Assembly: GCA_016839785.1 (NCBI GenBank)
Contig: JAEOTQ010000075.1
Coordinates: 1-46,104, forward strand
DNA length: 46,104 nucleotides
Reading direction: 5' to 3'
DNA from: Candidatus Hodarchaeota archaeon
GTDB lineage: Archaea; Asgardarchaeota; Heimdallarchaeia; Hodarchaeales; Hodarchaeaceae
Shown here: positions 11,144 through 33,039 of the stretch, in pieces
Numbering within the stretch: position 1 is the stretch's first letter
Layout: each line of letters starts with the position of its first letter
Program-made: the position numbers and the translations under genes
The notes under the pieces: model-generated
What the model saw: only the letters and a program-made list of their open reading frames with translations
Databases searched by the model: none
What the model was told of the DNA's origin: nothing

Positions 11144-13093
11144 ATGGAAGATGTGACTGAGGCCATTATAGATATTGGTTACGATTGCCAGATTTCAAAA
11201 GATAGTTTGATTGTTAAGAATCCAGACCATGATTGGTTTAGGATATTCCTACGAAGATATTATGTTCATACTAAAGATTATCAATACCTTTTCGGATCCA
11301 CTCAACCTGGACGACGCCCTGATCGCGCATATTATATGGTACCAGAAGGGTATCGACTAGGAGAAGGACAAAGGGCATTTGATCGTGAAAGAGGGAAGAA
11401 ACTATATGATGTTGTTCTCCGTTACCTTAAAGAGGAAAAAGTACCTGTTATTGTTCAAGATGGAATACAAGGAGAGCATGGTTATGAAATTGGTCTTCGT
11501 ATAACCATTAGCGTCAAAAATCCTCACTCAGCATATATCGGTTGGTTTGGAAAACTGATGGTATTTCCCCCAAAAGAGGATCAGAACATAGATTGTTGGA
11601 ATTTTATAATTCAAGAACCATTACCATTAGTGTATGTAAACGAAATACGGGAATTTTGGCCAAACTTCGATCCTAATGAACCTATCACATTATATGATTT
11701 CACTGAAATGGATCAGAATAAACGTCGTGTCATAAGTTTACGTGTTGATTACTTTGGAGGAGCCTACAAAAAGCCTAACCTCACTATGGTATGGAATAAA
11801 GCCGAATCTGATGGTTTTATTTCGTACCATGCAGGAATGACTTCAGATAGAGTTCTCAAAGGATTATCAGGGACAGGAAAAACCACTTTGACCGTTGGTC
11901 CTGAACTAGAGCAAGATGATGCATGTATTGGAAAGATAATTCGTGATTCTGAAACCAATAAAATTGATAAAGTTCAGTTGATTGGACTAGAGGCAGGATC
12001 TTTCGCAAAATCTCAAAATTTAGGCCCCCTATGTCCTGAATGGCCAGGTCTCATGAAATCCTTAGAAGTGGATGAAAATGGTGAACATCCTGTCGTTCTG
12101 GCCATGAATATTGATAGTGAAAATGTCAGTTACAAATTGAAGAAAATAAATGGATATACTGTAAAAGTTCCTGAAGTTGATGAAGGCAAAGAGCCAGGTT
12201 CACTACTTTGCACACGATATCACAGTTCGGGAACCACTAACGGTCGTTTTATCTTTTCCTTTTCTGAGCTAAACCCTGATTGGGGAAAAAGCAAAACACA
12301 CCGATATTTGAAAACAGTAGTTCTTTCGATGAAGCGGTTTGATTACATGCACCCCATGTTTCGTGTGGTTGATCCAGTGGTTGCTGTCGCACTTGATAGT
12401 GCTGTTGAATCAATAATTACCTCAGCCGTTGCTGCTCAAAAACCTGGAACGCGTGTACGTAGCTATTCAGCCACCGACTTCATGGCACGTGAACAATGTC
12501 ATCAAGCCTTATTAAAATGGGAAATGTACAGAGATATGGGTCTCGGCCCTGATGGTAAACTTGCTTTTATTGTTATTAATACTGGTGCTATTGGTGAACA
12601 TGATATCAATGGAAATAAAATTCAATTAACAGATGAAAACGGGGAATTTATACCAAAAATTGATCGAAATACTGGAAAAATCCTCCGAAATGAACTAGGA
12701 GAAATCGTTTATCAAGGTCAAGGGAAGAAAATTAGAGTTCCTCACTCAAAACAGTTGTTAGATTTAGCAGAACATCGTAAAATTGAAAAATGGTTACCTC
12801 ATCCCATTTTCGGGAAGCGAATTCTTATTCCAGAACCTAAAGAACTTGAGGATAAATGGAATATGAAACGATTTGGAAGGATGTTCAACCGTTTGCGTTA
12901 TTATAGTGAAAAGGAATATCTAGCTTTCGTTGTAAGAGATATAAAAGAACGAAGTAATTTTTTGAAGAAACTTTTCAAAGGACAAACCTGTGAAAAGGAA
13001 CTAGACGAAGTTATCAATGTTTGGCGTAATATGGATATTCCAGAGCCTGAAAAATTAGAAGAATTCTATAGAAAGTACTTTTGGGACTACTGA
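11144..13093 (+). CDS. pckA: Divergent ATP-type phosphoenolpyruvate carboxykinase
   Basis: Predicted to convert oxaloacetate and ATP to PEP, ADP and CO2 for gluconeogenesis. The kinase P-loop GLSGTGKTT at residues 240-248 has the ATP-PEPCK signature. Upstream, YFGGAYKKPN matches the YGGEMKKG metal/substrate region, and H229 may match the catalytic His. Downstream, the usual GDDEHGW is replaced by QDDACIG, which keeps the acidic pair. EAGSFAKSQ replaces EGGCYAKT, and VINTGAIGE matches the LVNTGWTGG strand. At 649 residues it is about 110 longer than bacterial PckA, mainly from N-terminal and C-terminal additions and a charged insert (about 485-530). It starts with ATG and has no Shine-Dalgarno. 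The altered motifs leave some doubt about exact activity. Confidence 0.8.
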   Translation: MEDVTEAIIDIGYDCQISKDSLIVKNPDHDWFRIFLRRYYVHTKDYQYLFGSTQPGRRPDRAYYMVPEGYRLGEGQRAFDRERGKKLYDVVLRYLKEEKVPVIVQDGIQGEHGYEIGLRITISVKNPHSAYIGWFGKLMVFPPKEDQNIDCWNFIIQEPLPLVYVNEIREFWPNFDPNEPITLYDFTEMDQNKRRVISLRVDYFGGAYKKPNLTMVWNKAESDGFISYHAGMTSDRVLKGLSGTGKTTLTVGPELEQDDACIGKIIRDSETNKIDKVQLIGLEAGSFAKSQNLGPLCPEWPGLMKSLEVDENGEHPVVLAMNIDSENVSYKLKKINGYTVKVPEVDEGKEPGSLLCTRYHSSGTTNGRFIFSFSELNPDWGKSKTHRYLKTVVLSMKRFDYMHPMFRVVDPVVAVALDSAVESIITSAVAAQKPGTRVRSYSATDFMAREQCHQALLKWEMYRDMGLGPDGKLAFIVINTGAIGEHDINGNKIQLTDENGEFIPKIDRNTGKILRNELGEIVYQGQGKKIRVPHSKQLLDLAEHRKIEKWLPHPIFGKRILIPEPKELEDKWNMKRFGRMFNRLRYYSEKEYLAFVVRDIKERSNFLKKLFKGQTCEKELDEVINVWRNMDIPEPEKLEEFYRKYFWDY

Positions 13094-13621: not shown

Positions 13622-14770
13622 TTGACGTTTAAAAATGTCCTTGACAATTTTCCTTTATTAGAAAAGAGAAATTACCTCTCTACTGCAAGTATAGGATTAG
13701 TTCCTATTTCTGTCATCGAAAAATCAACTGATATATTCACTGAATTAGCTCAGGGAGGAACAATTGCTCTAGATGAAGAAAAAGAAGTATATATTTACGA
13801 AAATTTAAGAAATGAAAGTTCCAAATTGCTAGGTTGTAGCAAAGAGGAAATTGCAATTTTTAATAGTGTTACAGAAGCATTGAATATTATTGCATGGAGT
13901 ATAGGTCTGAAGTCTGGAAATGTAATCTCTACGTCTGAAGAATTTCCTAGCGTTACGTATCCTTGGATACGACAAGGAAAGGATAGCTCTCTCAACCTAG
14001 AGTTCATTAAATCAAAGGAAGGATGTATTTCAACGGAGGAGCTAATAAACAGGATTGACAAAAATACTGAGATAGTTGTGCTAAGTCATGTTGAGTATTC
14101 CACAGGGCAAAAGTTTGATCTTGCAGAGATTGCAGAAGCTGCACACGAAGTTGATGCTCTTTTAATTGTTGATGGAATTCAAGCAGCAGGTTACTGTCCC
14201 CTTGACGTTAAAAAGTGGAACGTTGATGTATACATCACTGGAAGTTACAAATGGCTATGTGCACCATTTGGAACCGCTATATCTTATATTTCTCCCATTC
14301 TATGTGAAAAGCTTGAACCTGCTTTTGCAGGATGGAGGTCAGCGGATGATATGTGGAATTTCAGACCAGAAGAACTAGTTTTTACAAACAATGCTAAGAA
14401 GTTTGAGTATAGTACTAGTGCCTATAGTGCAAAAATTGGATTAGCAGAAGCAATCCATTATATACTTAATCTTGGAATTAACAATATTGAAAATTATTCT
14501 GAGAAACTAATAAAAATTCTTTTAGAGGAGCTAGAGCATATCAAAGGAGTGAATTTAATAAATCCACCTTCACGTGGATCTATTGTAACATTTAACATGA
14601 ATCAAACAGATATAACAAAGATTGGAAAACTGCTTGGATTATTACCAAGACCCATCAACATTACAATAAGACAGAATAGACTACGAATATCTCCGCATTT
14701 CTACAATACAGAATCGGACATTCTTGATTTTATCAAGGAATTCAAGAAGATAATAAAAAAACATGAATAA
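13622..14770 (+). CDS. Class V aminotransferase (PLP-dependent)
   Basis: A 382-residue fold-type I PLP enzyme of the cysteine desulfurase/isopenicillin-N-epimerase/kynureninase group. The PLP-ring Asp lies in IVDGIQAAG (near D184), and the Schiff-base Lys in TGSYKWLCAPFG (K210). The N-terminal NYLSTASIGLVP loop, the phosphate-binding FNSVTEALN, and the SHVEYSTGQ strand also fit. No Cys-containing desulfurase loop is seen near residues 320-340, so a NifS/SufS role is not supported. The substrate could be an amino acid or a sulfur compound. It starts with TTG at 13622, the first good codon after the TATA box; there is no Shine-Dalgarno. It diverges from the RHH repressor gene, which might control it as well. 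Confidence 0.85.
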   Translation: MTFKNVLDNFPLLEKRNYLSTASIGLVPISVIEKSTDIFTELAQGGTIALDEEKEVYIYENLRNESSKLLGCSKEEIAIFNSVTEALNIIAWSIGLKSGNVISTSEEFPSVTYPWIRQGKDSSLNLEFIKSKEGCISTEELINRIDKNTEIVVLSHVEYSTGQKFDLAEIAEAAHEVDALLIVDGIQAAGYCPLDVKKWNVDVYITGSYKWLCAPFGTAISYISPILCEKLEPAFAGWRSADDMWNFRPEELVFTNNAKKFEYSTSAYSAKIGLAEAIHYILNLGINNIENYSEKLIKILLEELEHIKGVNLINPPSRGSIVTFNMNQTDITKIGKLLGLLPRPINITIRQNRLRISPHFYNTESDILDFIKEFKKIIKKHE

Positions 14771-19902: not shown

Positions 19903-21003
19903 TTAGAAAAGCTGTTCAATTGGATTGAATAGATTAAATTTATCTACTCTTTCGCTTTCTTTAACATCTACCATCATTTTTCGTATGAGGGCAGCTGCGT
20001 ATTCTAATCCTTCATCCTCAAAAATTGAAATATGTTCATGTCCACTCACCTTCCACCCTGTTTTCGGGCTAAGTTTTTTGAGTTCTGAGACAAGATCAGT
20101 AATATCTGCTTCACTTGCTAGCAAATTGTTTAGGATGGTATCTTTTATTACATCTACGGTTAAATCATCCATATTAACTTGAGGTTCGGCACCTGCTTTT
20201 GGGTATTTTTGAAGTAAATCAACCCAATTCGTATCTAATTCTAGCATACTTGGTCTCATATCATTAAGTAAACTGAGGATTTGCATTTGGTCACCTTTAG
20301 GTTTTGTTAGCTCTTGTGTTAATGCTCTGCTAAAAATCCTGCAATTTACTAAACTAAATCCAGGTAAAAGTACTTTTCCTTGTCGAGCATTACCAGGTAC
20401 CAATCCAGTGAAATATTTTGACTCTAAGGAATTAATAATGACCTGTTCTAGTGTTGTAAAAGGAATTACATTACTTAGTAGGTGAATTTTCCTCTCTGTA
20501 ATACGGAAACCACGACTATAATATACTATCGGGGAAGTTTTAGCTTCTTTTAAACCGTCTACGATAGCCTGTGCAAAGTTCTCTGCCTCTTTACGAATAA
20601 TTTCATTCAAATCTCGTTTTGTTATAACCGCAGCTATAGGGTAATTGTCATAAGGTAAGAAGGAGGAAATAGATGAAGCTTGTGATAAGGAGTTTAGCCA
20701 GAATTTCTTAGTACAGGAATCTAAAATGATAATCATACCTTCCGCTGTACTACCGAACCGTTCACGTAATTTTTGCCATTTTTGCTGTCCACCTACAGGC
20801 AATAATAAACTAAAAAATCGTCCTTCATCAAATGAAAGTCGTAAATATTCTGTTTCAATTGTACCGCCAAAATCTTCCTCATAACTCATTGATTGATCTG
20901 TACGAGCAGCTAGTTTGGTTACTAACGCAGTTTTACCACCAGCTTGAGTACCTACTACAAGGAGTCTTCCCGCATTGATTGATTCTTCTCGTGTGTCTGA
21001 CAT
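19903..21003 (-). CDS. Atypical Arf/COG2229-like GTPase with C-terminal extension
   Basis: The third gene of an operon with two large unknown proteins. The N-terminal 190 residues are a Ras-fold GTPase: G1 GTQAGGKT (18-25), a G2 Thr in GGTIETEY (T48), G3 PVGGQ (about 69-73), where the Asp of DxxG is replaced by Pro while the Gly-Gly-Gln of Arf-type WDVGGQ is kept, and G4 TKRD (about 128-131). COG2229 and MglA-like GTPases show a similar loss of Asp (GTPGQ). The remaining 180 residues are an uncharacterised helical region. The frame is open to 21036, but the ATG at 21003, five bases after the upstream stop, is the likely start. Function is unknown; it probably acts as the switch for the two upstream proteins. 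Confidence 0.82.
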   Translation of the reverse strand: MSDTREESINAGRLLVVGTQAGGKTALVTKLAARTDQSMSYEEDFGGTIETEYLRLSFDEGRFFSLLLPVGGQQKWQKLRERFGSTAEGMIIILDSCTKKFWLNSLSQASSISSFLPYDNYPIAAVITKRDLNEIIRKEAENFAQAIVDGLKEAKTSPIVYYSRGFRITERKIHLLSNVIPFTTLEQVIINSLESKYFTGLVPGNARQGKVLLPGFSLVNCRIFSRALTQELTKPKGDQMQILSLLNDMRPSMLELDTNWVDLLQKYPKAGAEPQVNMDDLTVDVIKDTILNNLLASEADITDLVSELKKLSPKTGWKVSGHEHISIFEDEGLEYAAALIRKMMVDVKESERVDKFNLFNPIEQLF

Positions 21004-21007
21004 AACT

Positions 21008-22954
21008 TCAACTCCAATTGTACTTAATATTTCCAATAACCGTCATAAGATCTTTAGGATCTCTAGCACGTGCTTTTTCCAAGACTAAATGCAAATTGTT
21101 CTTTTCAGGACCCAAAGAAAGGTATTTATGAGGTCGATAAACAATTTCAACAGGATCAATACCTGCTTCATCCATAATATCGACTTCTTTAAAGGCTAAT
21201 GCAGATATTCCCTCAGGACTAGTATCATAATAGATAATATATGTTAAATCATCAACAGTAAATACTGTTTGTCTCAACTTAACATTATTATGAAGTGAGG
21301 AAACTTTAAAAGATGGAAGAGATAAGGCTTCAATCACAAGTGATTCTAACAGGAGATTTGTATCGTAAAACCAGGGATAACCGGCCATTTGGGCATAGCG
21401 ATATTCAAATTCGAATCCAGAACGTACCCAGATACTCATATTCTCAGGATGCACTCCTTTTTCGTCATGGTATATTCCGCGCTTAAAATCAATCGCTACT
21501 TGAAATATTGGTACAAATTTCTTCGCTGTAATTAAAGAGGTTGTATCTTCGCTTGAGAAAATATTCTTTAACAATCTAACAGATTGAATTTCCTCGTGAA
21601 TAAGCGTTTCTTCAAGAATTTTCATTAGTTGTTCGCTAACATGATTCCATATTCTCACTGGGAGTTTATTGGTTAAGATATAATTTCCATCAATTAGATC
21701 ATTCCGATCTACCCTTCCTGATAGAATAATATTAGCTAGTTTCTGACAAATCTCTAAAACATCAAATTTAGGTTGGCGATCACTCAGCATAAAGAGAGTA
21801 GATCGAAGAATTTCTGTTTCAACCCCGCTGTAGTCGTAAATCCATGCACGTGAGGGAATTTCCACTACATTGTCAATTACAAATTGCGAACTTTGCATAA
21901 ATGCGTTATTTTGTTTCAATTTATGAAACGGTGCAAGGATTCTTTCAAATGTCCCTTGAAGATTTCCGATATTACCTAGAATTTCACTATTGCGGTGTTT
22001 ATCCATCACTGAAAGACCGAGTAGGTGTTCTTTCTTAAGTCTTAATTCCCCAGGTTGGTCATCTCCCAGACTACTTCCCATAGTTTTCATACGCATGACG
22101 TCTGAAAGCCATGCGATGAATTTACCGATAGGATATTTGTCTATAGATGAATCATAGAATGTATTTAAACCCTTTCTGAGTTCGTCTCTAGGATAACCTG
22201 GTAGTAAATTATCCATAATTGAAAACACTTGACCTTCATTAAAATGCCCATCACTTGGATCCCGTTGGTATTTAGACCATTCAAATTGCTCTTCGATCCG
22301 TCTAAATGTGAGAGATGTCTCAATTAGGCTATCAATTTGATGAAAAGATTGCTTTGTTTGTGTTTTATGGGTTAATACGTCCTCTGATAATGCTGTTAGT
22401 ATTAAAGCATCAGTTAGTACGTTTTGTTTACGATAAGTATTGTTTGGACCAAAGTAAATATTCCGAACATCATTAACTGCTTCTCTGACATTTGTATATT
22501 CACTATAAGGCCAGAGGACTAAACCAAAAAGTTCTGGTAGTTCATGACGATGAGCCGATTGGAGTAGTTTCAGACGTTGTTCAAGTATATATGCGCGTAA
22601 TGAGTCGATATCAGAAAATAAGGACTTAATACTTGCATTTTCACTGTTCACTACATCCTTCCAGTAAGTAACATCTTCTTCAGTAATTAAATGCTTTATT
22701 TGGGTTTGAAGATCGTGTAAATGTGACTCTAATCCAAATAGATTATCATTAATTGGGACAATCACTGGAGCTAGCCACTGCTCAATCATTTGATAAGATA
22801 GGAAGAATTTTTCAGTCATTAGTTGAATATCTTCAAGATCTGAGGGTAAATTTCGAGCGGAACGAATTATATCTAGCTGGGGAAATAGATAATTTATACC
22901 AAGTTCTCCATATGCCTCTTCCAATTGTTTTTCAATATTCGATAAATCAACCAT
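21008..22954 (-). CDS. Large uncharacterised protein, GTPase operon gene 2
   Basis: A soluble protein of 648 residues in a family I cannot name. The first 170 residues are mostly long amphipathic helices with coiled-coil character. The middle is helical. The last 90 residues look like mixed alpha/beta (strands TVFTVDDLTYIIYYD and DPVEIVYRPHKYL). There is no signal peptide, membrane helix or recognised nucleotide motif. The ATG at 22954 overlaps the end of the upstream gene and sits seven bases after AGGAGG, which fixes the start; an in-frame ATG at 22981 is less likely. It lies between the 566-residue protein and the GTPase with almost no gaps, so the three should be made together in fixed ratio and may form a complex. 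Confidence 0.75.
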   Translation of the reverse strand: MVDLSNIEKQLEEAYGELGINYLFPQLDIIRSARNLPSDLEDIQLMTEKFFLSYQMIEQWLAPVIVPINDNLFGLESHLHDLQTQIKHLITEEDVTYWKDVVNSENASIKSLFSDIDSLRAYILEQRLKLLQSAHRHELPELFGLVLWPYSEYTNVREAVNDVRNIYFGPNNTYRKQNVLTDALILTALSEDVLTHKTQTKQSFHQIDSLIETSLTFRRIEEQFEWSKYQRDPSDGHFNEGQVFSIMDNLLPGYPRDELRKGLNTFYDSSIDKYPIGKFIAWLSDVMRMKTMGSSLGDDQPGELRLKKEHLLGLSVMDKHRNSEILGNIGNLQGTFERILAPFHKLKQNNAFMQSSQFVIDNVVEIPSRAWIYDYSGVETEILRSTLFMLSDRQPKFDVLEICQKLANIILSGRVDRNDLIDGNYILTNKLPVRIWNHVSEQLMKILEETLIHEEIQSVRLLKNIFSSEDTTSLITAKKFVPIFQVAIDFKRGIYHDEKGVHPENMSIWVRSGFEFEYRYAQMAGYPWFYDTNLLLESLVIEALSLPSFKVSSLHNNVKLRQTVFTVDDLTYIIYYDTSPEGISALAFKEVDIMDEAGIDPVEIVYRPHKYLSLGPEKNNLHLVLEKARARDPKDLMTVIGNIKYNWS

Positions 22955-22958
22955 CTTT

Positions 22959-24659
22959 TTATTCCTCCTGTACTCCACCAACAGAGGTGTTGGTTAATAA
23001 TTCCAGAAATTTAAATTCTTCTTTAAACAACTCTATAAACGATTGAGTAATTTTCCTTTGTTGCAAAATAGAGATTTTTCCTCCTCCAAATGCTAATTCA
23101 GTACTTTTTAATGCGAGTATGCTTGAATATATATCGGCTATTGAAGCTTCATCGTCAACGAGATTCTGTGCTTTGTTACCGTACTGTTTCGCTAAATTCT
23201 GTGGCGTATCGGTTGTTTCCATTAGCTCTTTTCTTATATCCATATCTCCTGTTTCGGTGAGAGCTGCCTTTACTTCTTTCTCTAATTCACTGAAATATAC
23301 TTCTCCTCTTGGAACCAATCTATCATAAGTAAATTTGAAAGCATCTTCTATAGATTGTTCCTCTGATTCGCTCCCCAAATATGTATGCATATTTGTTACA
23401 ACATTTAATACTTCTGCTTCCACTTCCTCTTTTAGAACGTGTTTTTCAAGATTATTTATTCTTCGATTTAAGATTAATCTTGACTGAATCTTACTTACAC
23501 CTTCAGGCTCGGGAATTTGCCTTCCTAAATTTTTAAGTACTGAAGTAATCATAACATCACCTAATTCTCGACATAAGAATTGAGGCTGATAATTTGCTAA
23601 ATCAAGCAAAGATAGAATGGTAGAGTTTGGTTTGTCGGTGAAAAGCTCTTTTTGACTTTGTAGGATATGGATATACTCTGACATATAACCGCTATAATTC
23701 CGCTGCTGGGCGTATTCACTTCTCATTCTAGCCCTAAAGTTACTTTTTACCGTATTAAATTGGTTCAATCGGATTGAAAAGAGTAGTGCACTTTTCATGG
23801 ATTCAATATCAGGGAATTGGTCAACAACATCTATTTTCATGTCTTCTATCTTTGTAACTGCTTGTGCATCAAACGCTAACAATAATCGCAACCATAAATG
23901 AAATATCCGATAGGGATAGTATTCAGGATTATTCCCCGCAATATAACGAAGTAAAAAATTTGGTTTTAATTTTGTATGGGGATTTTGCTCTCCAATAAAT
24001 GGTCGATTGTCATCTCTATTGGGTTGGATGAAGCGACGAACTAATAATTTGTCAGCAATTTCATAATCAAGCAAAAAATCAATGACTTCTGATATTTCCT
24101 CATCAGTCAGAATATAAAGTTTTGTTATAATAATGGATAATAATCCGTAAAGTTCAATTTGACATTTGGCATATTTTTTTGCAATGTCTTCAGGCCGATT
24201 TATATCATATAAGAACGACTGTTCAGGTTTTTCCGTGATATCGGGATCTAAAAAGCTAAGAAGTTCTACTCGTGTATCTTTAAAACGATCTCTGCTAGAA
24301 AAATGATCTTCAGCCAATAATGATTTTCTGACAACGAAATCTAATTCATTTTCTGGCACAGGAGGTAAAAATCTGATTTGATCAGCAAAAAATCCGAGAT
24401 CTCCATACCAAGGACGGATTTTCCATTCTGTACTGTCGATCAATCGTTGAATAATCTTATGACGAACACCTGTTGCTTCCCACGCGTGAACAGAATCATC
24501 CCCCAAGAATAGTGAACGTTTGTAAGTTTTTGCTTCTTCAGTCCCTATTGTATCAACAGGATAGCGGACATACCATGTTTCCCCTAAAACTGTAGAAAAC
24601 CACTTTCTATGTGCGACATATGTTTTCCACAGGTCTTCGGCTTCTTCGAAAATTGTCAT
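22959..24659 (-). CDS. Large uncharacterised protein, GTPase operon gene 1
   Basis: A soluble, almost entirely helical protein of 566 residues and the first gene of the GTPase operon. It is Trp- and Tyr-rich near the N terminus (TWYVRYPVDTIG, KIRPWYGDLGFF). A run of charged helices follows, with a possible coiled coil at about 440-500. No catalytic motif, Cys cluster or membrane segment is visible and I know no matching family. The ATG at 24659 is preceded by two TATA-like sites, one inside a GGTTA-AA-TAACC inverted repeat. Its end overlaps the Shine-Dalgarno and start region of the next gene. Confidence 0.75.
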   Translation of the reverse strand: MTIFEEAEDLWKTYVAHRKWFSTVLGETWYVRYPVDTIGTEEAKTYKRSLFLGDDSVHAWEATGVRHKIIQRLIDSTEWKIRPWYGDLGFFADQIRFLPPVPENELDFVVRKSLLAEDHFSSRDRFKDTRVELLSFLDPDITEKPEQSFLYDINRPEDIAKKYAKCQIELYGLLSIIITKLYILTDEEISEVIDFLLDYEIADKLLVRRFIQPNRDDNRPFIGEQNPHTKLKPNFLLRYIAGNNPEYYPYRIFHLWLRLLLAFDAQAVTKIEDMKIDVVDQFPDIESMKSALLFSIRLNQFNTVKSNFRARMRSEYAQQRNYSGYMSEYIHILQSQKELFTDKPNSTILSLLDLANYQPQFLCRELGDVMITSVLKNLGRQIPEPEGVSKIQSRLILNRRINNLEKHVLKEEVEAEVLNVVTNMHTYLGSESEEQSIEDAFKFTYDRLVPRGEVYFSELEKEVKAALTETGDMDIRKELMETTDTPQNLAKQYGNKAQNLVDDEASIADIYSSILALKSTELAFGGGKISILQQRKITQSFIELFKEEFKFLELLTNTSVGGVQEE

Positions 24660-30577: not shown

Positions 30578-30652
30578 AGCCCCGTGGTGTAGAGGCTATC
30601 ATATGAGGCTTTGACCCTCACGACTCCAGTTCGAATCTGGACGGGGCTGCCA
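30578..30652 (+). tRNA. tRNA-Gln (anticodon TTG)
   Basis: A complete cloverleaf. Acceptor AGCCCCG pairs with CGGGGCT; the anticodon stem TGAGG/CCTCA closes the loop CTTTGAC with anticodon TTG; the T-arm is TCCAG-TTCGAAT-CTGGA; discriminator G73 is at 30649 and an encoded CCA at 30650-30652. It has an A1-U72 first pair and an archaeal-looking D-arm (GTGT at 10-13). No intron. It decodes CAA. Confidence 0.95.
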
Positions 30653-30693
30653 TTTCTTCTCTACATAATTTAAATGAATATAAACATTAGTCA

Positions 30694-30765
30694 AGCCCCA
30701 TAGTGTAGTGGTTAGCACCTCAGGCTCTGAATCTGATGACTCCAGTTCGAATCTGGATGGGGCTG
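30694..30765 (+). tRNA. tRNA-Gln (anticodon CTG)
   Basis: The second Gln isoacceptor, 41 bases after the first. Acceptor AGCCCCA/TGGGGCT; anticodon stem TCAGG/TCTGA around the loop CTCTGAA, anticodon CTG; T-arm identical to its neighbour; discriminator G73. The CCA end is not encoded here. It decodes CAG. An AT-rich TATA-like stretch precedes it (30667-30685). Confidence 0.95.
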
Positions 30766-30870
30766 TTCTAATTTTTCCCTATACGCAGCCTGCGGAAAAT
30801 TTATCTCAATGCTCGAAATCAGATCACATTTATTAAAAATTTGAGAAATATTTGAGCTACCTGAGCCAAG

Positions 30871-31269
30871 ATGAACCAAAACACACACCCATTTGACTAT
30901 TTAGCTGGACATCGGACGATCAGTTTGACGACTTATTATAAAAGTGGTAAAGGTGTAGCTACACCTATAGATTTTATTAGGAAGAATGATCACTTATATG
31001 CATCAACTAGAGTGGATTCGTATAAAGTAAAACGGTTGAGAAATAATCCCGATGCCAAAATAGCCCCGTGTACGATGCGTGGAAAGCTTAAAGGCCCAGA
31101 AATTAATGTGAAAGTGTGGATAATTCCGAAAGCAGAGGAGCAATTCGCATCTGAAACGATGGAGGAAGCGATCACTCTCTTATACAAAATTCTTATTAGA
31201 TTATCGAAATTAGCTTTTTGGAGAAAAGAGACAGAGCGACTTTACTTAGAAATCACTCCACAAATCTGA
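30871..31269 (+). CDS. PPOX-class flavin/F420-binding split-barrel protein
   Basis: 132 residues of the FMN-binding split-barrel (pyridoxamine-phosphate-oxidase-like) superfamily, closest by eye to the F420-dependent PPOX class. The hallmarks are ISLTTYYKSGKGVATPIDF, then LYASTRVDSYKVKRLRNNPDAKIAPC and GPEINVKVWII. The strand order and length fit the whole domain. Members reduce or bind small aromatic substrates using F420, FMN or heme; the cofactor cannot be settled here. The ATG at 30871 opens a single-gene unit lying between the tRNA-Gln pair and glnS and convergent with glnS. Confidence 0.85.
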   Translation: MNQNTHPFDYLAGHRTISLTTYYKSGKGVATPIDFIRKNDHLYASTRVDSYKVKRLRNNPDAKIAPCTMRGKLKGPEINVKVWIIPKAEEQFASETMEEAITLLYKILIRLSKLAFWRKETERLYLEITPQI

Positions 31270-31302
31270 GGAGTTTGATTCCTGGATTCAAAGAAAAGAA
31301 TG

Positions 31303-33039
31303 TTACTTCTTTTTTTGCCTCTTTTTCTTTGAATGAGGATGCTGTTTAAATATTTTTGCCCATGTATCACGCAATGTGCTCGTACGATTAAATACTAGGT
31401 TGTCTTGGGAAAATTCCTTTGGATCAGTGAAAAAGTATCCTAACCGCTCGAATTGATAATGGCTAGCTGGTTTAGCATTTCCTAAGCTAGGTTCTACATA
31501 TCCTTTTGTTGTTGTTAATGAGTCAGGATTGTAATCAGGCAACCCAGAGGGATCTTCACGCTTGAATAACCGATCATATAATCGAAATTCTGCTTCCAAC
31601 GCATGTGGTTTTGAGAGCCAGTGGATTGTACCTTTTACCTTTCTTCCATCTGGGGACGATCCACCCTTTGTGTTGGGATCATATGTACACTGAAGTTCGA
31701 TAATTTTTCCAGAATCATCTTTTACAAAATTGGTACAAGTAATAAAGTAAGCATTCCGGAGTCGAACTTCTCTACCCACTGTTAATCGATAAAATTTCTT
31801 TGGAGGATCCTCCATAAAATCCTCTTGCTCTATGTACAGCTCTCGTGAAAATGGTACTTTCCGAGTACCTTTAGATATATCTTTTGGATGGTTTGGTATT
31901 TCTAAATGTTCTACCTGGTCATCGGGATAATTTTCAAGAACGATTTTCAATGGATTTAAGATAGCCATTACTCGATTAGCTTCTTGATCTAGTTCTTCAC
32001 GAACACAGGATTCCAATAAACCATAATCAATATTCTTCTCTCGCTTTGTAACACCTACTCTACCAAGAAAAGTTCTCATCGCGCTTGCAGGAAATCCACG
32101 ATTTCGCATTCCTGCTATTGTTGGCATTCGTGGATCATCCCATCCCGAAACATAGTTTCCATCAACTAATTCTAACAGCTTACGTTTACTTGTAATCGTA
32201 TAGGTTACATTCAATCGAGAAAATTCAATTTGCCGAGGTTTATGCTTTAATGCACCAACGGCTAGAAGTTCATCCACAAACCAATCATATAAGGGTCTAT
32301 GGGTTTCAAACTCAAGGGAACAGAGCGAATGAGTTATTCCCTCAATGGCATCTGATTCCCCATGTGTAAAATCATAACTGGGGTAAATTATCCAATCAGT
32401 CCCTGTTCTATAGTGGCTAACCCTTTTAATTCTATACATGATTGGATCACGCATGAGTAGATTGGGAGATGCCATATCTATTTTAGCACGTAAAACCTTT
32501 GAACCGTCCTCAAATTCACCGTTACGTATCCGTTTAAATAAATCGAGATTTTCCTCAATTGTTCTGTCTCGGTAAGGACTATTAACCCCTGGTTCTGTTA
32601 AGGATCCTCTTTGTTCTCTTATCTCGTCAGCACTTAAATCACAGATGTATGCCTTTCCAGCATTAATCAAAGCCACTGCAAGATCATATAATTCCTCAAA
32701 ATAATCTGAAGCAAAATATAACCGATCCTCCCAATCAGCTCCTAACCATTGAATATCCTCTTTAATTGCCTCTACATAGTCCATGCTTTCTTTGGAAGGG
32801 TCAGTATCGTCAAAACGAAGGTTAAAAAGGCCATTATATTCTTGGGCAATACTATAGCTTAAGTAAATCGCCATTGCATGGCCAATGTGCATCCAACCAT
32901 TGGGTTCTGGAGGAAAACGTGTATGAACTCTTCCTTCGTTTTTATTTGTTCGTATATCATCAACCACAATTTTTCGGATAAAATCAAGTCCGGAATCATC
33001 CTTCTTTGTTTCATCAGGCGGATTCTCTGAGGTTTTCAC
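31303..33039 (-). CDS. glnS: Glutaminyl-tRNA synthetase (bacterial/eukaryotic type)
   Basis: Attaches glutamine directly to tRNA-Gln. Its 578 residues match the full length of bacterial GlnRS. The class I HIGH motif is in RFPPEPNGWMHIGHA (HIGH at 51-54), followed by LRFDDTDPSKE. The KMSKS counterpart is TSKRK (about 283-287). GlnRS-specific segments include SLTEPGVNSPYRDRTIEEN, KVLRAKIDMASPNLLMRDP, DFTHGESDAIEGITHSLCSLEF and DDPRMPTIAGMRNRG. The C-terminal anticodon-binding barrels are present (RKVKGTIHWLSKPHALEAE). Archaeal GluRS proteins lack these. It starts with GTG after an AAGGTG Shine-Dalgarno. The two tRNA-Gln genes lie within 2.5 kb. Canonical archaea lack this enzyme, so transfer from a bacterium or a eukaryote-related origin is likely. 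Confidence 0.95.
   Translation of the reverse strand: MKTSENPPDETKKDDSGLDFIRKIVVDDIRTNKNEGRVHTRFPPEPNGWMHIGHAMAIYLSYSIAQEYNGLFNLRFDDTDPSKESMDYVEAIKEDIQWLGADWEDRLYFASDYFEELYDLAVALINAGKAYICDLSADEIREQRGSLTEPGVNSPYRDRTIEENLDLFKRIRNGEFEDGSKVLRAKIDMASPNLLMRDPIMYRIKRVSHYRTGTDWIIYPSYDFTHGESDAIEGITHSLCSLEFETHRPLYDWFVDELLAVGALKHKPRQIEFSRLNVTYTITSKRKLLELVDGNYVSGWDDPRMPTIAGMRNRGFPASAMRTFLGRVGVTKREKNIDYGLLESCVREELDQEANRVMAILNPLKIVLENYPDDQVEHLEIPNHPKDISKGTRKVPFSRELYIEQEDFMEDPPKKFYRLTVGREVRLRNAYFITCTNFVKDDSGKIIELQCTYDPNTKGGSSPDGRKVKGTIHWLSKPHALEAEFRLYDRLFKREDPSGLPDYNPDSLTTTKGYVEPSLGNAKPASHYQFERLGYFFTDPKEFSQDNLVFNRTSTLRDTWAKIFKQHPHSKKKRQKKK

Follow-up and report, generated by a model that had tools for sequence, protein, structure and literature searches.

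A GlnRS gene beside two tRNA-Gln genes

The stretch of DNA analyzed here, referred to as the window, comprises 46,104 nucleotides from a Candidatus Hodarchaeota archaeon (contig JAEOTQ010000075.1 of assembly GCA_016839785.1, positions 1 to 46,104) and carries a gene for glutaminyl-tRNA synthetase (GlnRS) beside two tRNA-Gln genes. The GlnRS gene (31303..33039, minus strand) begins with a GTG start codon and encodes a bacterial-type enzyme of 578 amino acids (aa) with a catalytic domain and two anticodon-binding domains. In a profile search it scored 707 bits with TIGR00440 (glnS; cut-off 425.8) over positions 1–524 of the 524 in the model. Its domains matched PF00749 (catalytic), PF03950 and PF20974 (both E/Q-type anticodon-binding), and the protein lacked an N-terminal extension. 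Orthologues in genomes G042, G046, and G047 were 81–85% identical. GluQ-RS, the short modifier of tRNA-Asp Q34 that lacks an anticodon-binding domain, was ruled out by the 578-aa length, by the presence of both domains, and by scores far below cut-off with the GluQRS models. A structure predicted from a 9-row alignment was poor (mean predicted local distance difference test score, pLDDT, of 60) and was left unused.

Both tRNA-Gln genes lie on the plus strand. The gene with anticodon TTG (UUG; 30578..30652) has an encoded CCA and the gene with anticodon CTG (CUG; 30694..30765) does not; they scored 56.9 and 62.9 bits, respectively, and both exceed Rfam's gathering threshold for tRNA, which is 29. 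The GlnRS gene and both tRNA-Gln genes are within 2.5 kb of one another, and the arrangement reported in a preliminary description of this DNA was thereby confirmed.

Host genome and assembly

The window is contig C26 of a genome (G000) of 4.04 Mb in 248 contigs with 3.4% contamination, and the host class is Heimdallarchaeia. When 32 window open reading frames (ORFs) were compared with the retrieved pieces of G042, G046, and G047, 29 found a match, the best identity being 68–93% for 27 of these, and gene order was colinear; the ORFs at 288–1790, 2010–2750, and 13622–14770 had no match on those pieces. This gene neighborhood was found again in independent assemblies and the locus is therefore not chimeric. 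The archaeal host suspected in the preliminary description was upheld, and the chimeric contig it had raised as an objection was contradicted by the same gene order in G042, G046, and G047.

Distribution of GlnRS

For the glnS search, four named archaeal genomes were added as controls to 227 genomes of the phylum. The 58 genomes of the window's class fall in seven families (f1–f7), with f1 being the window's genus (12 genomes). Full-length GlnRS over cut-off was found in 26 of the 227 phylum genomes, all 26 within the class (26/58): six of 12 genomes in f1, 15 of 23 in f4, and five of nine in f7. None was over cut-off in the 14 genomes of f2, f3, f5, and f6, nor in the 169 phylum genomes outside the class. 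Partial GlnRS occurred in five further class genomes, as contig-end fragments in G020, G024, G057, G061, and G062. Single-contig genomes with GlnRS were G048 (70% complete), G050 (96%), and G008 (92%). The preliminary description had asked whether GlnRS might be ordinary in this lineage; the gene recurs across the class, but not one of the phylum's remaining 169 genomes had it over cut-off. The glnS model also matched GluRS in many genomes, below cut-off.

A tRNA-Gln gene lay within 2.5 kb of GlnRS in five of the six f1 genomes with GlnRS and in 12 of the 15 f4 genomes with full GlnRS; in G048 (f1) the distance was 117 kb.

Type, architecture and origin of the enzyme

Against solved chains the window GlnRS scored 518–672 bits with bacterial-type enzymes and less with the human (417), yeast (407), and 8uk6 (373) chains. 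The longer f4 GlnRS scored 486–663, 400, 385, and 370 bits, respectively, with the same chains. A eukaryotic-type GlnRS was ruled out by the missing N-terminal extension and the lower scores with the human and yeast chains, and of the earlier label "bacterial/eukaryotic-type" only the bacterial half stood. The 79 best bacterial homologues kept were 56–62% identical to the window GlnRS; they came from the best 80 matches to the window sequence in a longer list, one of which was archaeal. Because this sample consists of best matches to the window form, it may include too few relatives of the f4/f7 form.

In a careful tree of 73 rows the 15 Asgard GlnRS formed one clade, with a Shimodaira–Hasegawa-like approximate likelihood ratio test (SH-aLRT) support of 95 and an ultrafast bootstrap (UFBoot) of 100 that had not settled; a quick tree of the same rows gave 96. 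A tree of 87 rows rooted with yeast GlnRS and an Asgard GluRS also united them (SH-aLRT 97) and nested them in bacteria (nodes at 92 and 80) with no clear sister and with a long-branch warning. Asgard GlnRS was placed inside bacteria by a quick tree of 108 rows as well. All trees omitted the incomplete sequence L113 and short Asgard fragments, and the smaller sets omitted further bacterial rows. GlnRS is thus bacterial-type, old, and shared within families; an ancient gain from bacteria accounts for it best, a direction that we infer.

The GlnRS of f4 and f7 carry about 80 additional N-terminal residues that are absent in the window's genus. This part matched the domain found at the N-terminus of archaeal GluRS, with chain 3aii aligning from residue 3. 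The N-termini of Asgard GluRS matched it at 33–57% identity, the lowest E value being 6e-15 against a small local set. Among 23 Asgard GluRS, the best match of the extension was an f4 or f7 GluRS for eight of nine GlnRS, and five of six f4 GluRS shared a one-residue deletion with the N-terminal domain of f4/f7 GlnRS. Bacterial homologues mostly had 27–61 residues ahead of the catalytic motif; L122, L126, L139, and L168 had longer open frames, as judged by length only. Several class GluRS reached about 300 bits with the glnS model, and several GluRS of f4 and f5 (L352-L357, L031) had unusual HIGH-motif regions, e.g., PEPSKHPHIGQ.

Letters and ancestry of the window tRNAs

Both window tRNAs carry A1-U72, G2-C71, C3-G70, G10, U35, G36, A37, and G73, and the acceptor and anticodon letters given in the preliminary description were all correct. 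The bacterial tRNA-Gln identity elements tabulated in a passage of PMC9976931 are G73, G2-C71, G10, U35, G36, A37, U1-A72, G3-C70, and U38, of which the window tRNAs have the first six. For comparison, 14 Asgard sequences of tRNA-Gln type with A73 were made into model R2; two of them came from the window's genus and three had a 6-base anticodon loop. The window tRNAs scored 78.9 and 71.0 bits with it, and bacterial tRNA-Gln scored 33.9–49.9 bits, the latter being eight genes that ARAGORN called in the surroundings of bacterial GlnRS genes (60 loci). The window tRNAs, with far higher scores, have archaeal bodies, as they had appeared to at first sight, and are not bacterial imports. In a tRNA tree of 72 columns, which kept one CUA row (G045), the UUG-G73 genes of f1 grouped with the UUG-A73 genes of f1 and one f3 row (SH-aLRT 94), and the G73 of f6 and f4 arose elsewhere than that of f1.

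Genes for tRNA-Gln were sought in 58 chosen genomes with a tRNA-Gln model, the counts being genes retrieved among the matches listed; 13 distinct tRNA rows (other anticodons, 6-base loops, CUA, UUA) were excluded from the tally. Among the matches listed, f1 genomes with GlnRS had 16 standard tRNA-Gln genes, 12 with G73 and A37 and four with A73 and G37. All 12 of the tRNAs in the GlnRS set, from six f1 genomes, had G73 and A37, and all seven other standard tRNA-Gln of the genus had A73 and G37. Three of these seven were from f1 genomes without GlnRS, two of them (G044) lacking A1-U72. The earlier suggestion that the tRNAs are adapting to GlnRS gained support from the 12 of 12 genes. Beyond the genus, position 73, a G in the window, was A in 13 of 13 outgroup tRNA-Gln and in 10 of 10 from f2, f3, and f5 among the matches listed.

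Two genomes of the genus, G048 and G050, each have two tRNA-Gln pairs: a G73 and A37 pair without insertions, and an A73 and G37 pair. Of the four A73 and G37 genes in the two genomes, three contain insertions, which are regarded as introns. In G050 the GlnRS gene shares a single contig with GatD, GatE, a GluRS-type gene, and both tRNA-Gln pairs; the GluRS match located in G048 was partial (286-aa frame). The coexistence of two routes, offered earlier as one possibility, is thus supported at gene level in these relatives, most clearly in G050. In f7, six genomes had a UUG gene with G37 and five of them also had a second UUG gene with A37; the A37 UUG gene of G058, G059, and G060 was at most 4.1 kb from GlnRS.

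A 5-kb contig in an f4 bin (G011:C64, L238) holds a tRNA-Gln identical to those of f7; it may be mis-binned and was tallied under f4. In f6, genes L192 and L208 (G036) and L224 and L228 (G033), from genomes without GlnRS over cut-off, combine G73 with G3-C70.

The indirect route

In the window genome, GatD and GatE are encoded on contig C24, where they score 472 and 348 bits and each pass the cut-off; a GluRS-type gene lies on contig C183. GatB was not over cut-off in G000. The search for gatD, gatE, gatB, and GluRS that the preliminary description had proposed for the same genome thus recovered all but gatB. Since GatB was over cut-off in only one of the 58 class genomes (G053), GatCAB was ruled out as another route to Gln-tRNA.

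A tree of GatE formed two clades, with GatE2 on a long branch at SH-aLRT 100. GatE1 contained f2 G053, f3 G006, f5, f6, the first copy of f7, f1 G044, G048, G049, and G050, and four outgroup rows. GatE2 contained the second copies of f3 and f7, 10 f4 rows, and f1 G000, G041, G042, G045, G046, G047, and G051. The sole GatE found in the window genome therefore falls in GatE2, outside the canonical GatE1. Conservation in GatE2 was counted as cells retained at positions invariant in 28 GatE1, before and after reference position 430, beyond which we take the tRNA-binding tail to lie. The f1 GatE2 kept 399/427 cells before this position and 49/80 after; the values were 591/610 and 91/120 in f4, 411/427 and 70/84 in f7, and 59/61 and 8/12 in f3. 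The GatD of G000 retains the TGGT, HGTD, and K motifs, which are presumably catalytic. A second, divergent GatD2/GatE2 pair occurs at f7 loci including L085, L080, and L084, and at L086 (G006), in genomes that have the standard pair too.

GatE1 co-occurred with intact canonical tRNA in G044, G048, G049, and G050 and, judged by the UUG gene with G37, in six f7 genomes. Its absence co-occurred with lost or altered canonical tRNA in G000, G042, G041, G045, G046, G047, and G051, and in f4 for UUG. In this sample, standard GatDE and canonical tRNA persist or fade jointly, as expected if they make up one route and GlnRS with its linked tRNAs the other.

Apparent loss or alteration of the canonical tRNAs

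A canonical A73/G37 tRNA-Gln was not found in G000 or G042 with model R2 or with a 25-base pattern allowing up to three mismatches (0 hits). The counterpart of the canonical CUG gene in G045, G046, G047, and G051, likewise recognized by its match and bearing an intron, has a CUA anticodon, and its stem changes keep pairing. These CUA tRNA-Gln-like genes (L268 in G046, L269 in G047, L270 in G051, and L271 in G045) have A73, and A1-U72 except for A1-C72 in G051. In other genomes the anticodon loop has six bases: in the UUG gene of G041 and G017, and as TTTAGG in G010, G019, and G026. The 6-base-loop genes (TTTAGG or TTTTGG; L010 1168–1242, minus; L014 1132–1206, minus; L018 1165–1239, minus; L250 4206–4277, plus; L254 66–137, minus) have a standard acceptor stem and lie near GlnRS in f4; in G041, which has one too, position 72 is G. 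A standard UUG gene with G37 was found in none of the 10 f4 genomes tallied, and a CUG gene with G37 in seven, among the matches listed. In G018:C37 a tRNA-like gene (L259 62–134, minus) has a 7-base loop, ATTTATT, with formal anticodon UUA.

Genome-wide reassignment of UAG was ruled out as the code behind the CUA tRNA: in the stretches analyzed, TAG ends 27 of 122 ORFs of at least 100 aa in G046, 13 of 71 in G047, and 15 of 50 in G045, and the frame stayed open for at least 60 codons past TAG in only two, one, and two of those ORFs, respectively. A separate readthrough comparison was confounded by antisense frames. Pyrrolysine was ruled out as the cause as well; PylRS was over cut-off in none of the 12 genus genomes, with weak sub-threshold matches in five. 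In G045, G046, and G047, all with the CUA tRNA, two ORFs in one frame are parted by a TAG that is conserved, and an ATG follows it after four codons. One is, we presume, E2/UEV-like and the other like an ESCRT-I subunit, and they are probably two genes.

Interpretation and alternatives

It is quite probable, judging from the sequences, that a direct route to Gln-tRNA was acquired, that host tRNAs were duplicated and re-adapted to it, and that it coexists with the indirect route in some relatives and has replaced indirect Gln decoding in the lineage of the window. GlnRS would activate Gln and then transfer it to the neighboring G73 tRNAs. The tRNAs of the GlnRS set would derive from host archaeal tRNA-Gln by duplication, followed by the gain of G73 and A37; the tRNA tree supports a host origin for the UUG-G73 tRNA, and the archaeal body suggests the same for the CUG-G73 tRNA. 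In G048 and G050 the direct and GatDE routes would operate side by side, with one tRNA pair for each. In the sub-lineage of the window, GlnRS probably supplies all Gln for decoding, given that the canonical tRNAs there have disappeared or changed and that the sole GatDE found is a divergent paralogue; the old route in G000 is probably out of use for Gln codons. Compatibility would have been reached by tRNA change (G73) in the genus and perhaps by enzyme change (the extra domain) in f4 and f7, a contrast between two clades only. From the genes, their sequences, distribution, and linkage, and the tRNA letters, we infer charging activity, specificity, and replacement.

Several observations weigh against this interpretation. 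No GlnRS was found in six of the 12 genomes of the genus, and at 84.5% completeness of G000 the gene absences there are provisional. The bacterial elements U1-A72, G3-C70, and U38 are replaced in the window tRNAs by A1-U72, C3-G70, and C38 or A38. Among the matches listed, f4 genomes with GlnRS had 17 tRNA-Gln with A73 and four with G73; f7 had A73 in every gene, counted as 19 of 19 and also as 18 of 18; and f6 had three with A73 and four with G73, the latter in G033 and G036, which have no GlnRS over cut-off. G73 is thus no universal partner of GlnRS. A37 occurs in five of 13 outgroup tRNA-Gln and is not special to GlnRS genomes. Bacterial glnS also has tRNA-Gln nearby (in six of 60 control loci) and linkage alone therefore proves little. 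In the window genome or its clade, GatD and GatE retain nearly all conserved positions of their catalytic parts, so that the indirect route may still act. Chain 4p2b, which we take to be from the eukaryote Toxoplasma, scored in the bacterial-like range (626 bits with the window GlnRS and 632 with the f4 form), and a bacterial type alone does not mean a bacterial donor. A 108-row quick tree and a 35-row tree each split the Asgard GlnRS into two groups, and in the 35-row set a tree with bacteria as one clade outside Asgard had a likelihood 2.15 units higher (p of the approximately unbiased test, p-AU, 0.55).

As to origin, a bacterial glnS placed on an archaeal contig by contamination or chimeric assembly would fit the type of the gene and the 3.4% contamination of the metagenome-assembled genome, but the gene order shared with G042, G046, and G047, the presence of GlnRS in the single-contig genomes G048, G050, and G008, and the archaeal bodies of the adjoining tRNA-Gln leave this explanation next to no likelihood, and it is in practice refuted. 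That GlnRS was gained more than once, with the genus form and the f4/f7 form being separate transfers, is the less likely history, yet one to be taken seriously. The 108-row quick tree parts the forms and places f1 beside Bacteroidota (SH-aLRT 89), the 35-row tree places them beside different bacterial rows (91 and 94), and both the architectures (no N-terminal domain against a GluRS-type domain) and the tRNA solutions (G73 against mostly A73) differ; the 73-row set (96 quick; 100/95 careful) and the rooted 87-row set (97) nevertheless unite them. It is improbable that the GlnRS of Heimdallarchaeia is sister to, or the source of, bacterial GlnRS, with an original N-terminal domain lost in bacteria and in the genus. 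Such a history would suit the 35-row test, where the tree that keeps bacteria together and Asgard outside them had the higher likelihood and a p-AU of 0.55, and it would suit the plainly archaeal GluRS-like domain. It runs counter to the nesting of Asgard GlnRS in bacteria in the rooted tree (92 and 80, with its long-branch warning), to the restriction of GlnRS to parts of one class, and to the GluRS matches of the domain (eight of nine GlnRS; the deletion shared by five of six f4 GluRS), which look like a later fusion. Bacteria as one clade were not rejected; of the transferred direct-charging gene proposed in the preliminary description, the foreign (bacterial) type stood and the assumed direction did not follow from the trees.

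As to use, acquisition of the direct route could have led to coexistence without replacement in the species of the window, with GlnRS and GluRS plus GatDE charging the same A1-U72 tRNAs and GatDE amidating Glu-tRNA-Gln as a backup. GatD, GatE, and a GluRS-type gene are all present in G000, the A1-U72 pair, recognized by GatDE according to a passage of PMC9499178, is kept in both window tRNAs, and the catalytic part of f1 GatE2 is largely intact. However, this GatE is a divergent paralogue, in f1 its tail lacks 31 of the 80 conserved cells, and G048 and G050, where a standard GatE stands beside GlnRS, have a separate A73/G37 tRNA pair. Coexistence holds at gene level in G050 and G048, but in G000, where the canonical A73 tRNA was not found, it seems rather unlikely. 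The CUA and 6-base-loop tRNAs are unlikely to decode CAA and CAG normally yet are well formed. A tentative and doubtful suggestion is that freed tRNA-Gln and divergent GatDE2 were kept as a separate device after the takeover by GlnRS, perhaps for UAG readthrough or for non-decoding use of Gln- or Glu-tRNA.

Relation to known systems

The window GlnRS resembles bacterial GlnRS (TIGR00440; chains such as 5bnz and 1gsg) in domain layout, family score, and identity, and differs in its archaeal host and in its archaeal-bodied tRNAs with A1-U72 and C3-G70; the f4/f7 relatives differ further by their archaeal GluRS-type N-terminal domain. With the archaeal indirect route (non-discriminating GluRS and GatDE) G000 shares the encoded GatD, GatE, and GluRS-type gene and the retained A1-U72, and it departs from that route in its divergent GatE, in the canonical A73/G37 tRNA-Gln that was not found, and in the presence of GlnRS. 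In Bdellovibrio, Deinococcus, and Thermus, GatCAB serves Asn. These bacteria likewise combine GlnRS and an amidotransferase in one genome (a passage of PMC4206432), but theirs is GatCAB, whereas here it is GatDE, and the tRNA-Gln of G048 and G050 come in separate pairs. The gain of archaeal AsnRS with loss of the indirect Asn route, described in part of PMC9499178, is alike in that a direct synthetase displaces tRNA-dependent amidation; the window case concerns Gln, and its tRNAs seem duplicated and re-adapted.

According to passages of three reviews, archaea have no GlnRS or form Gln-tRNA by the indirect route in all cases (PMC8762117, PMC9499178, PMC7373986), and in two of them the absence is linked to tRNA-Gln unfit for GlnRS. 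PMC9499178, in the passage concerned, reports no GlnRS transfer to archaea and ties this to divergent archaeal tRNA-Gln, while a passage of one review states that GlnRS was transferred to Archaea. No report of Asgard GlnRS was among the titles listed in literature searches, whose coverage left out subscription journals and preprints, and the passages retrieved from PMC11193907, PMC12395588, and PMC9723677 did not mention it.

Part of an archaeal class thus seems to be past the supposed tRNA-Gln barrier to GlnRS. Living species appear to show the stages: standard GatDE only; GlnRS and standard GatDE with two tRNA pairs; and GlnRS in species whose old tRNAs have been lost or altered. The way in which a core translation route is swapped can thus be tested directly, as can the question whether a change in the tRNA (G73) or in the enzyme (N-terminal domain) overcame the barrier, and the paired tRNA sets could aid genetic code work.

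Other genes in the window and genus

Between the tRNA genes and GlnRS lies an ORF of 132 aa (30871..31269, plus strand) resembling PPOX-class F420-dependent oxidoreductases (TIGR03666, 103.8 bits; cut-off 84.9). It adjoins GlnRS in G042, G046, and G047 too, and its role is probably unrelated to charging. Three overlapping genes at 19903–24659 (minus strand) encode two large proteins that matched nothing in Pfam and a Ras-like GTPase, and are 85–89% conserved in G042 and G046. A 649-aa protein at 11144–13093 (plus strand) is distantly similar to ATP-type phosphoenolpyruvate carboxykinase (Pfam, 38.6 bits) and is 87–92% conserved in relatives. Elsewhere in the genus, a protein of 332–336 aa (L278 364–1362, minus, in G000; L280 1052–2062, plus, in G050) combines a GluRS-type N-terminal domain with a weak nucleotidyltransferase match (PF18765, below cut-off, in the G000 copy).

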